From a virus, in IMG/VR virus record IMGVR_UViG_3300034374_006017, positions 1-22,701 of that record: a DNA stretch of 22,701 bases. One strand, written 5' to 3'. Position 1 is the first letter of the stretch; every line of letters begins with the position of its first letter. Made by a program: the position numbers and the translations under genes. The notes beneath the pieces were generated by a model that saw nothing but the letters and a program-made list of their open reading frames with translations, searched no databases and was not told where the DNA came from. Shown in pieces: positions 15,470 to 18,808 of this stretch.

Positions 15470-16811
15470 TCGGCAAGCTATCGCCGTTTATCTGCTCGGC
15501 TATTTGTGGGGCATCTAACCCACTCAGCGAAATAGGAACACGGCCAGCGGGCATATATATTTCATCCATCATCGGGTCGGCCTCCCTTTCGTAGCCCATC
15601 TTTTCGCGGGCCTCGTTAGGTGTCAGCCAGTAGGAAACATTAAGCCAGTTAGCCAGTTCCTGCATATCCGGCTGTAGCTCGTTTATATTGCTTTGGTCTA
15701 CCTTGAAATAGACATCGCGCCCTTTAAGGTCTGGGTACTTTGGTAAGAGCTTCCGAGACAGTTTGCCGTAGATGCGGTCAGCCATAGGCAGCACGGCGTC
15801 TGTATACATCTGCTTACGCGCTTCCTTTAGGTTGGTGTACGTCTTGCCTATCTCGCTATTAAATAGCTGGCTCGGCACATGGTACACGTTGCAGACGTCT
15901 ACTAACGTCATTTTAAGGGTGTCCATTATAGCCAGGTCCACGGCGGACAGTCCGAAGTTGATATACCCCAAGTTACCCGAAGTTACCGCGATCGTACCGC
16001 TGTTCTTCGTGCCGCTCATCTTTCTGAACTTGGCTTCTAAATTCCTTTGCTGTACCTCGGTTAGAGTATCGGTTATACCCTCCATACCCTTATCATACAG
16101 TACGCCCGGAGGTCCTAAGTTCTCCAAGCCTTTTTTATTGGCCTCGTAACCGCTGTTCCCGGTCTCAATACTACGCCAAGCCGAACGGATCGGGGACATT
16201 CCGTAGCGCTCTTGCCCATCGCCGTAGATGTATTGGGCGTTCTTGAAATGTATAATCTCGTCAGTAGTAAACTCGGCCCCCTCTACATTCCCCCACAAAG
16301 ACATAGTATAACCGGCTACGGGTGTACCCATATCGCCGCCTACTACGTCCATGAACTGAGAAGGCAGCACGTACATATTTATCGGCCGCCCCGCGTTTGG
16401 TCCATCGGCCGGGGAAGTGCAGTAGTCGTAAGCGTTTCCAGTAATTAAAAGATAGCCGGCCAGCTGCTCCATAAAATCGAACTTGCTTTGCTCTTCGTTG
16501 GGTTCGTATATCAGGTCTAAAGCCGGGTGATCTAATTCTACTTTTTCGCCGTTTACGTTCTCTATTAACTTAACATCCAGCGCGGCGGTCTTTTGGGCTA
16601 TCGCACTAACTACGGCGAATACATCGGGGTTACGTGCATACCCTTGTTCTACGTAGTTCTGTACATTATCATCGTTCCAAATTGGCCCCCTGCCCAGGTA
16701 GGAAAGTGCGGCAAAATACTTGTTAGTGATTCTTTCGGCCTCTTCAATTTGTTGAAGGGTTCGCGCTGGTGCGAATCCGATAGCCTTCTGTAGCCGTTCT
16801 AAAAAGGTCAT
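15462..16811 (-). CDS. Portal protein (HK97 family)
   Basis: A 449-residue portal protein, which would form the twelve-fold ring at the capsid vertex through which DNA enters and leaves. Visible family patterns: NPDVFAVVSAIAQKTAAL near the N-terminus, DHPALDLIYEPNEEQSKFDFMEQLAGYLLITGNAY, YVLPSQFMDVV, EIIHFKNAQ, YGMSPIRSAWRSI, GTIAVTSGNLGYI, VCNVYHVPSQLFN, MYTDAVLPMADRIYGKLSRKLLP and WLTPNEAREKMGYERE. Length is normal for the family. ATG overlaps the terminase stop (ATGA). Identity is secure from motifs and context. Confidence 0.93.
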   Translation of the reverse strand: MTFLERLQKAIGFAPARTLQQIEEAERITNKYFAALSYLGRGPIWNDDNVQNYVEQGYARNPDVFAVVSAIAQKTAALDVKLIENVNGEKVELDHPALDLIYEPNEEQSKFDFMEQLAGYLLITGNAYDYCTSPADGPNAGRPINMYVLPSQFMDVVGGDMGTPVAGYTMSLWGNVEGAEFTTDEIIHFKNAQYIYGDGQERYGMSPIRSAWRSIETGNSGYEANKKGLENLGPPGVLYDKGMEGITDTLTEVQQRNLEAKFRKMSGTKNSGTIAVTSGNLGYINFGLSAVDLAIMDTLKMTLVDVCNVYHVPSQLFNSEIGKTYTNLKEARKQMYTDAVLPMADRIYGKLSRKLLPKYPDLKGRDVYFKVDQSNINELQPDMQELANWLNVSYWLTPNEAREKMGYEREADPMMDEIYMPAGRVPISLSGLDAPQIAEQINGDSLPND

Positions 16812-17965
16812 ATATATACTTCCCTGGGTTTAACGCTGTTTGCGTATAGTATCGCATCCATCGAATGGTCGAAGGCATCTATAGGCCGCTCTGGACTACG
16901 GGGCTTACCGTCCTTATCCATCTCCCAGGCATACCAAGTTACTTCCTCCCAAATGTTGCGGCTATTCGCAGTTACAAAGATAGATAACCTCTTAAGGTCT
17001 AAAATCGCATGACGTTTGTAGTCTTTACTCTTCTTTACGCCAATCGCTTTGAACCCGTAGCGCTTCAGCTCGGTAATACTTCGCGGCTCGGCTGAATCGC
17101 ATATAAGGGTATCGCCCCCATCTATCCCTGCCTTTCGCATCCGGTCCGCTAATAGGTCCAGGGTTAGGCCCTTCTCGTATACTATCTCTTCTACATACCG
17201 GCGGTCGTTCTTCCTTCCCAGCTTGACTACGCAGGTAGGATCGTTGGTAAAGCCGAAGTCTACGCCGTAGGTAATTGAACTACATTCCGCCCAGTCTATT
17301 TCTTGGACCTTCTGCCAGGTAGTGTATATCTGCCCTTTCCTACCGGCGGACCGTTTGCCTTCCCCATATACCTTCCAGTAGTCCGGGTCTATGTCCTTGA
17401 ATCTTTCTATTTCGGCTATAACTACGTCCGAAAGGTGCGGATTGTCCTTGTAGGTAGTTATCAGCGTCTCGCAGTCCTTACGGGTTTGTACCTCATCGTA
17501 TATCCAATGCATAGGATCGGACGGGTTAAAGTCTATAACAGCGCAGGCCGTGGTCCTAAATAACATTTGGTTCCAGCCTTCCAGGGTTATCTCGTTGCAC
17601 TCGTTAATAAACAGCAAGTCCCTTTTACGCCCTCGGACCTTTTGCGGCTGGTCTAAGCTGATAAACTCTATTAGGTTTCCTTCAAGTAAATAGGTACTCT
17701 CGGTCTTGTTGTGGTTCTCTACCCGGTAGGCGTCAAAGCTGTTTAGTATGTCTATGAAGTCCCTTAGTACAGACCCACGGATAGCCGGATACGTTGCCCT
17801 GGCTATGGTTATGACCATGCCCGCGTTAGGGTACTTGTAGCAAAGCTCTATGAGAAACTGTATAGCGCTGAAGGTCTTACCCGATCGCGTACCCCCTTGC
17901 AGAACCAGTATACGCTTGCTTAGGTAGTTGTCCCGTAAAAACTTAAGGTTAGGGTTTGTCTGCAT
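16808..17965 (-). CDS. Terminase large subunit
   Basis: A 385-residue packaging ATPase and nuclease. The ATPase has Walker A GGTRSGKT (24-31) and Walker B LLFINE (117-122), with VRGRKRD just before it. The RNase H-like nuclease domain shows three acidic sites: GVDFGFTNDPT (Asp236), LICDSAEP (Asp290) and DAFDHSMDAILYA (Asp366, Asp370). It is slightly short for the family but has all the motifs. I chose the ATG at 17963-17965; an upstream in-frame TTG would add two residues. The start lies 17 bases inside the small subunit gene. Together with that subunit and the portal it forms the packaging motor. Identity is secure. Confidence 0.94.
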   Translation of the reverse strand: MQTNPNLKFLRDNYLSKRILVLQGGTRSGKTFSAIQFLIELCYKYPNAGMVITIARATYPAIRGSVLRDFIDILNSFDAYRVENHNKTESTYLLEGNLIEFISLDQPQKVRGRKRDLLFINECNEITLEGWNQMLFRTTACAVIDFNPSDPMHWIYDEVQTRKDCETLITTYKDNPHLSDVVIAEIERFKDIDPDYWKVYGEGKRSAGRKGQIYTTWQKVQEIDWAECSSITYGVDFGFTNDPTCVVKLGRKNDRRYVEEIVYEKGLTLDLLADRMRKAGIDGGDTLICDSAEPRSITELKRYGFKAIGVKKSKDYKRHAILDLKRLSIFVTANSRNIWEEVTWYAWEMDKDGKPRSPERPIDAFDHSMDAILYANSVKPREVYI

Positions 17966-18230
17966 TGTCAAGCATCCAAGGCGGCACTATCTTTTCCACG
18001 CTGTCTATGTTCGCCTCTATCTTCTGAGTAGGTAGCCCCAGCCTATACTTAGCCCAAAGCTCTATAGCCCACTTCTCGCCCTTCTTTACCGCCTTGCCTA
18101 ATTGGTCCAGCGCCTCGTCATCAAACAAGCCTACGCGCTCTAATAGCCTTTTAGCATCCGGCTTCTTACGGCCGTCTACTGGCTTAGTGCTTTTAGTGCT
18201 ATGGCCTCCGTTGTATTTGCGCTTGTCCAT
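17949..18230 (-). CDS. Terminase small subunit (probable)
   Basis: A 93-residue basic protein directly upstream of the terminase large subunit and overlapping it by 17 bases. It starts MDKRKYNGGHSTKSTKPVDG, a basic NGG-containing arm often seen in small terminases of Bacteroidota phages, and continues with helical segments KPDAKRLLERVGLFDDEALDQL and KWAIELWAKYRLGLPTQKIE, the latter resembling the W-A-x-x-x-x-x-Y-x-x-G-x-P-x-Q region of these proteins. It would recognise viral DNA for packaging. It is short for the family and identified mainly by position and these patterns. The basic arm is shared with the GIY-YIG protein encoded two genes upstream. Confidence 0.78.
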   Translation of the reverse strand: MDKRKYNGGHSTKSTKPVDGRKKPDAKRLLERVGLFDDEALDQLGKAVKKGEKWAIELWAKYRLGLPTQKIEANIDSVEKIVPPWMLDNADKP

Positions 18231-18395
18231 TTATTTAAGGTCCGCTGGTATAATCTCGTCTGGATCTGTTCCTTTTACCGGAAAGTCTGCTCTTTGGTCA
18301 AGGTCAGGCGTACTGAAGTAGTACCGGCCTTCATGCTCAAAGTACATTAGACCAAAGGTGTTGACCTTCATTTTTGTATTTTCAGTAACATTCAT
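18231..18395 (-). CDS. Small protein between GIY-YIG nuclease and terminase small subunit
   Basis: A 54-residue frame that exactly fills the space between its neighbours: its ATG overlaps the nuclease stop (ATGA) and its TAA abuts the terminase small subunit ATG. The product (MNVTENTKMKVNTFGLMYFE to PDEIIPADLK) has a likely beta hairpin, VNTFGLMYFEHEGRYYFS, and an acidic C-terminus. An internal ATG nine codons in is an alternative start. I do not recognise it. Perfect fit into the overlapping chain is the main argument that it is a real gene. Confidence 0.65.
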   Translation of the reverse strand: MNVTENTKMKVNTFGLMYFEHEGRYYFSTPDLDQRADFPVKGTDPDEIIPADLK

Positions 18396-18808
18396 CTTAC
18401 GTTATACTTTGGTTTTAAGTCTTTAATTAAGGCAGCTTCTATAAGTAAAGCGTTTGGTTCGGTCAAACTGTTAGCCACTATCTCAATGTTTATATGACCA
18501 TTTACCATTAACTCGCCATGCTCTTCGTCACGACTTGCCCAGTGCATCGCCCTTTCCCCTTTGCCTTTACCCACATAAACTACCTCCTTTTCTATCTTGT
18601 GAAGATACACATAGTAGAGACCGTGCCTTATGTGCTTGTCTAAAAAGTCCTTGCGTACACTTTCATAGAAGTGGTACATCTGCACTTTAATCTGCTTAAA
18701 GAAAAATTCAAATTGCTCAGGGTTTTCAAAGCTCATACGCTTACGCCTATCTATTGGCTTCTTGCTCTTTGTGCTATTACCTCCGTTGTTTTTTCGTCCG
18801 TCTGGCAT
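18392..18808 (-). CDS. GIY-YIG endonuclease with terminase-like N-terminal arm
   Basis: A 138-residue protein. Residues 1-24 (KNNGGNSTKSKKPIDRRKR) are a basic arm strongly resembling the start of the terminase small subunit encoded two genes downstream. Residues 25-60 are helical and aromatic. Residues 63-136 are a GIY-YIG nuclease fold: GLYYVYLH, then VVYVGKGKGERAMHW, with probable catalytic Arg86 and His89, and LIEAALIKDLKPKYN with the metal-binding Glu124 and the family's terminal K-P-x-Y-N. Such enzymes are often homing nucleases, or act next to terminase in phages. It starts with ATG 24 bases after the glycosyltransferase stop. The nuclease call is firm; whether it is mobile or helps packaging is open. 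Confidence 0.85.
   Translation of the reverse strand: MPDGRKNNGGNSTKSKKPIDRRKRMSFENPEQFEFFFKQIKVQMYHFYESVRKDFLDKHIRHGLYYVYLHKIEKEVVYVGKGKGERAMHWASRDEEHGELMVNGHINIEIVANSLTEPNALLIEAALIKDLKPKYNVR

Follow-up and report, generated by a model that had tools for sequence, protein, structure and literature searches.

Genes at the terminase locus

The DNA analysed here is the whole of IMG/VR record IMGVR_UViG_3300034374_006017 (22,701 bases; hereafter the window), from a virus whose hosts are probably Bacteroidota bacteria; a second contig, 99.98% identical to it, exists. The subject of this analysis is a gene for a GIY-YIG nuclease located upstream of the terminase genes, which carries an N-terminal arm of the type found on the nearby terminase small subunit-like gene (TerS). 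The nuclease protein starts with MPDGRKNNGGNSTKSKKPIDRRKRM and the TerS-like protein with MDKRKYNGGHSTKSTKPVDGRKKP. The coordinates of these genes, of the terminase large subunit gene (TerL) and of the intervening open reading frame (ORF) of 54 codons (ORF54) are collected in Table 1.

Residues 67-138 of the nuclease aligned to the UvrC GIY-YIG domain (NCBIfam, 2.3e-7), and a profile of four nuclease sequences matched PDB entries 1yd6 (1.1e-5) and 1ycz (1.3e-4). Y66, Y68, Y78, G80, R86, E124 and N136 were invariant across the four alleles described below; the presence of the GIY/YIG core with its catalytic Tyr, Arg, Glu and Asn places the protein in the GIY-YIG superfamily, and the Pfam GIY-YIG models matched it only below threshold (LEM-3_GIY-YIG, 0.013). 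The structure prediction for the nuclease was of low confidence (mean pLDDT 46), since too few sequences were available.

The name TerS, used for the arm-bearing gene upstream of TerL, is inferred from position. The gene overlaps the TerL start in the window, and the same small gene overlaps the annotated TerL of the isolated Nonlabens phage P12024L. Among 56 representative TerS sequences, 55 matched phrog_38011, labelled 'unknown function' in PHROG, and one matched phrog_2538, terminase small subunit. For at least 92 of 142 arm genes, a narrow regular expression located a TerL Walker-A motif within the next 700 nucleotides downstream. The TerS structure model had a pLDDT of 71 overall and of about 54 over residues 1-20, with the arm unstructured, and a fold search of this model against PDB gave no match.

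Table 1. Features of the terminase locus in the window
Feature	Position	Strand	Basis or remark
GIY-YIG nuclease gene, 138 codons, with TerS-type N-terminal arm	18392..18808	-	ORF listing; UvrC N-terminal GIY-YIG matches
Nuclease arm, residues 1-24, MPDGRKNNGGNSTKSKKPIDRRKR	18737..18808	-	alignment, PHROG match, tblastn
GIY-YIG domain, approximately residues 60-137 (YYVY, YVG, R86, E124, N136 invariant in four relatives)	18398..18631	-	
TerS-type leader ahead of the nuclease, weak match, 7.5 bits	18811..18832	-	equalled by 1.3% of control ORFs
ORF54, 54 codons, between nuclease and TerS, separate module	18231..18395	-	occurs without the nuclease in L005
Terminase small subunit-like gene (TerS), phrog_38011 type, 93 codons	17949..18230	-	overlaps TerL start; synteny with Nonlabens phage P12024L
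TerS arm, residues 1-23, predicted without secondary structure	18162..18230	-	
Terminase large subunit gene (TerL, Terminase_3)	16808..17971	-	Pfam PF04466 1.8e-15; phrog_2 3.8e-46

The shared arm and leader

It had been proposed in the initial annotation that the two gene starts were homologous at the DNA level, with 40 of 51 bases identical over 17 codons. This count was reproduced exactly (codons -2 to 14 around NGG), and 41 of 57 bases were identical over 19 codons. With both peptides back-translated according to the codon usage of the phage, the expected number of identities was 34.6 +/- 2.7 of 57 (p about 0.013). Thus, the sharing of the arm was confirmed, whereas the DNA-level support beyond the peptide match was modest. 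The starts as originally quoted lacked their first codons (MPDG and MDKR), and the span assigned to the feature took in the unrelated ORF54 (18231-18395). In a tblastn search of the full nuclease against the window record, the TerS arm was found (E=4e-5), and phrog_38011 matched both the nuclease arm (1.5e-5) and TerS (2.4e-7). The closest DNA match to the window nuclease arm among 148 distinct TerS arms in relatives was the window's own TerS arm (46 of 63 bases; mean 31.6, s.d. 3.9).

The distribution of the arm was surveyed in 328 loci drawn from IMG/VR around relatives of TerS, TerL and the nuclease and around NGG[H/N]STK DNA patterns, the two pattern scans of IMG/VR covering AGY serine codons only. 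Among the matches listed, about 145 distinct ORFs carried the arm near their start and, rare chance motifs aside, each carrier was a TerS-like protein of 80-118 residues or a GIY-YIG nuclease encoded immediately upstream of TerS; the arm is characteristic of the phrog_38011 TerS-like proteins. The possibility that the arm is a mobile tail found generally, on proteins unrelated to one another, was rejected, since these matches comprised only TerS-like ORFs, nucleases and a few out-of-context chance matches, and the relationship initially proposed between the two genes withstood this check. Two loci considered as further nuclease relatives (L331 and L332) were discarded, both being TerS genes matched through the arm.

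Four arm-bearing nuclease alleles were found, in the window and in loci L006, L131 and L235, all of them upstream of TerS; a search of genome collections, plasmids and isolated phages for nuclease relatives yielded none beyond the GIY-YIG core. L131 and L235 belong to a phage lineage different from that of the window, and their nucleases are about 51-54% identical to the window's. The L006 nuclease, the arm of which is VDKRKYNGGHSTISKKAVDRRKR, stops 20 bases inside TerS, and that of L235 stops 17 bases inside it. In L131, the last codons of the nuclease gene (KSIESKI) are altered, and its overlap with TerS is lost, through a tandem duplication of 28 bases close to its 3' end (L131:4750-4810) that is private to this contig. 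The arm pattern G[HN]ST..DRRK is kept in all four alleles. Between the window and L235, the nuclease arm and the nuclease body are conserved to about the same degree (12 of 22 versus 58 of 114 residues), whereas the TerS arm is better conserved than the TerS body (12 of 23 versus 22 of 68 residues).

A leader of about 22 nucleotides (consensus AATAAATAATTAATTTGTATTA) is common to the TerS genes of the arm family, the start codon following it after a few bases. TerS leaders had a median score of 21.4 bits, the 99th percentile of 1323 control ORF leaders being 8.2, and the leaders of the L131, L235 and L006 nucleases scored 19.4, 18.2 and 16.0 bits, values reached by none of the 1323 controls; the L006 score is counted from a GTG start and falls to -6.5 from ATG. 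The displaced TerS genes scored -7.6 in L235, -14.0 in L006 and -13.1 in the window. As a control, in L276 an armless GIY-YIG gene lies upstream of TerS, and there the nuclease has no leader (-7.8) and TerS retains its own (19.5). These scores thus indicate that arm and leader travel together, the nuclease occupying the TerS 5' end. The weak score of the window nuclease leader (Table 1) was obtained with a model in which an offset was allowed; a first, ungapped model gave a null result, with 31% of controls scoring as high.

The leader itself, a putative operator or RNA element conserved just ahead of TerS (in L237, L248, L142 and L008, for example), has TTAAT/ATTAA half-sites. These half-sites change jointly to TCAAT/ATTGA in other phages (L248 and L276), with a similar state in L006 and L007, and in some phages the leader lies downstream of an apparent TAnnTTTG promoter.

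Occupied and empty sites in related phages

In the sister lineage, locus L237 has no nuclease, its upstream gene passing straight into TerS, while its flanks on either side are 92-94% identical to those of L235; it therefore represents a near-perfect empty site. The L131 nuclease leader is identical to the L237 TerS leader (60 of 60 bases), and the first eight codons of the L131 nuclease match the L237 TerS start in 24 of 24 bases, versus 21 of 24 for L131's own TerS start, which in turn is identical to that of L235 (24 of 24). These identities indicate that the resident TerS start is now that of the nuclease and that the present TerS start was brought with the cassette. The left junction in L131 lies at a GGA common to the resident AATAACGGA and the cassette GGAAATAAAGGGCATAG, which accounts for the odd NGNKGHSTK of this nuclease. 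Thus, the takeover of leader and first codons, together with an L235-identical replacement start, is directly visible in L131.

L131 and L235 differ at 2 of 338 positions in the nuclease body, 27 of 434 in the upstream flank and 5 of 115 in the TerS stretch (body versus upstream flank, Fisher p=1.3e-5). A body far less diverged than the upstream flank, along with the L235-type TerS start in L131, indicates that the nuclease body moved laterally not long ago, accompanied by co-conversion. That L131 might be a chimera assembled from L235- and L237-type reads was considered and thought unlikely, given the 3-base junction homology, the private 28-base duplication and two private substitutions. The insertion of the nuclease at the TerS start, or its recombination with it, was initially only surmised for the window and is seen directly in this sister lineage, and so is the further suggestion of a homing-like event in which TerS regained a start.

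In the window, the insertion is older. Phages with 98-99% identical TerL protein are mostly without the nuclease; in L008/L009 the upstream gene, as in L237, runs directly into TerS (TTG start, LDKRANNGGHSTK), and in L085 and others a different TerS body (MAGHSTK...DRRKN) lies between the same flanks. Between the window and L006, the nucleases are saturated at synonymous sites, whereas synonymous divergence (dS) is 0.54 for TerL and 0.29 for TerS; therefore, the nuclease and its arm are an old unit that was recombined in. The window is a mosaic with an L005-type ORF54-TerS segment, its cassette being an older copy that has since recombined with that segment. Accordingly, the initial idea that insertion had created the arm copy in the window phage itself was not supported as stated: the insertion there is not recent, although the same kind of event is visible in relatives.

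The slot is also occupied by other pieces. ORF54, which gave no match in Pfam and PHROG, lies ahead of TerS both where the nuclease is present and where it is absent (window 18231-18395; L005:452-616). It was rejected as part of the nuclease cassette, since L005 has ORF54 and TerS without the nuclease. A different 109-residue ORF (MKTEEQKKDLEWFDNGG...) lies upstream of TerS in L007 (1719-2048), L088 and L092-L094, marking an insertion hotspot. Comparison of window positions 17949-18230 with L085, L088, L092-L094 and L103 showed that TerS itself is swapped wholesale between two types (MDKR..NGGHSTK and MAGHSTK..DRRKN), with the same VPPWMLDN-type tail, in phages otherwise more than 90% identical.

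Origin of the arm and comparison with known systems

These results altogether make it probable that the nuclease gene is a mobile gene of the free-standing homing type that targets the TerS 5' end, captures the TerS leader and start, and supplies a replacement start. On insertion, the nuclease would be joined in frame to the leader, start codon and arm codons of the resident TerS and would thereby be expressed from TerS's own leader, and the right end of the cassette would bring a replacement TerS start and arm, so that TerS would be pushed downstream yet remain intact. Neither an intron nor an intein would be required. The arm on the nuclease would then have been captured from the 5' end of a TerS gene, and movement would be driven by a double-strand cut that the nuclease itself makes in empty TerS starts and that is mended by recombination. 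Some points weigh against this interpretation. Only four arm-bearing nuclease alleles are known, and L131 and L237 are metagenomic contigs. For the window, the relatives include no close empty site that has this leader, the leader match is weak, ORF54 separates the nuclease from TerS, and the nuclease diverges from that of L006 as an old gene would.

A working role in the packaging module was weighed as an alternative, in which the arm would dock the nuclease on TerL, on TerS sites or on DNA near the packaging site. The gene lies directly upstream of TerS-TerL, its arm pattern is retained in every allele despite bodies about 51% identical between lineages, and HNH packaging proteins occur upstream of terminase in other phages (PMC10448857, PMC12724721). 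However, almost all phages whose TerL protein is 98-99% identical lack the nuclease, which is thus dispensable for that motor, its body moved recently between genomes independently of the flanks, and its arm is no better conserved than its body, in contrast to the arm of TerS. A packaging role is therefore unlikely, and targeting of the nuclease to the packaging motor by the arm is possible but unsupported, nothing having been found in its favour. If adjacent genes had instead undergone repeated rounds of gene conversion or template exchange, with no homing, the nuclease would be an ordinary passenger at a recombination hotspot and the arm the crossover point. The TerS slot is indeed such a hotspot, exchanging TerS bodies, the 109-residue ORF, ORF54 and nucleases in otherwise more than 90% identical phages, and the first codons of TerS alleles vary jointly with the upstream DNA; yet this explanation, which we regard as quite improbable, leaves unexplained why GIY-YIG nucleases alone carry the arm and why a replacement TerS start is linked to the cassette in L131 and L235.

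Convergence of basic, flexible, AT-hook-like DNA-binding tails without common descent would fit the basic, low-structure character of the tail (pLDDT about 54 over TerS residues 1-20) and a comparison spanning just 57 bases. It is contradicted for L131 by the complete identity of nuclease start and leader with L237 TerS, and it sits poorly with the codon-level excess in the window (p 0.013) and with the arm being on no other protein among the matches listed, so that it is highly improbable.

Somewhat more likely than not, the homing-type nucleases define a class of intron-less and intein-less phage elements that enter essential genes at their 5' ends: for its own expression the nuclease would fuse to the leader, start codon and first codons of the target, and the right end would supply a new start. 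Such elements may have arisen more than once, because in L190 an unrelated MUG113/T5orf172 GIY-YIG gene with an arm and a TerS-like leader adjoins TerS. This gene (L190:7492-7926; Pfam 4.4e-13 and 3.5e-9) has a GGARAGAGRK arm, lies immediately upstream of a GGHSTK TerS, and was the one further nuclease in an unbiased scan for the TerS leader before any ORF, with a moderate score of 15.7; as a single, possible instance of independent start capture it is suggestive only.

Start capture accounts for the otherwise puzzling arm common to the nuclease and TerS, and it names a candidate target site for a GIY-YIG nuclease, namely the TerS start and arm DNA. It also implies that similar N-termini on adjacent phage proteins can be scars of mobility rather than signs of a common function. 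As the natural empty and filled sites show, a selfish nuclease gene can persist inside an essential gene, even in the compact genome of a phage, by swapping starts and with no need for splicing. No report of a phage homing endonuclease gene taking over its target's start was found in the literature searched, subscription literature lying outside its scope.

Among known systems, the packaging accessory nucleases of the HK97 gp74 type adjoin terminase genes (Kala et al. 2014, via PMC12724721) and resemble the present case as small nuclease genes at that position. They are of the HNH fold and conserved with the terminase within their phages, whereas the window nuclease is of the GIY-YIG type and missing in almost all close relatives. 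The region upstream of terminase is likewise a hotspot for nucleases of homing endonuclease type, T5orf172/HNH, in ICP1 and relatives (PMC10448857). This location is shared with our case. The passages of that report consulted make no mention of a captured TerS arm or leader, and the nucleases described here belong to another GIY-YIG subfamily, L190 alone being T5orf172/MUG113.

Free-standing homing endonuclease genes of phages, such as the T4 seg and mob genes and Aeh1 mobE in nrdA, are known for co-conversion and gene splitting (PMC2988022). As there, a free-standing GIY-YIG or HNH gene lies by or in essential phage genes, with patchy presence and flank co-conversion. Occupied and empty alleles were found at one site in both lineages (L131/L235 versus L237; window and L006 versus L008/L009 and others), and a nuclease shared more recently than its flanks, with co-conversion, was found for L131/L235 but not for window/L006. 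However, the T4 and Aeh1 genes sit between genes or split a gene, and a swapped start for the invaded gene is not described for them (PMC2988022).

A closer parallel is offered by the fungal mitochondrial mORFs, which form gene hybrids in Allomyces atp6 and in Glomus atp6, atp9, cox2 and nad3 (PMC3630166). In these, an endonuclease ORF (LAGLIDADG, or GIY-YIG in atp9) enters an essential gene and brings with it a second copy of the end of that gene; whereas the native carboxy-terminus is close to that of relatives, the inserted one is diverged, and the gene still works as a hybrid (PMC3630166). In both systems an endonuclease ORF enters an essential gene and a duplicate of a gene part replaces the native part, as in L131, where the cassette's diverged duplicate left the native start on the nuclease and the replacement on TerS. 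However, the phage duplicate comprises the leader and the amino-terminus, not a carboxy-terminus, the native start passes to the nuclease, and the gene invaded is that of a phage terminase, so that the arrangement is the mirror image of an mORF hybrid rather than one itself. In this way, a principle known at gene ends in fungal mitochondria would be extended to gene starts in phages.
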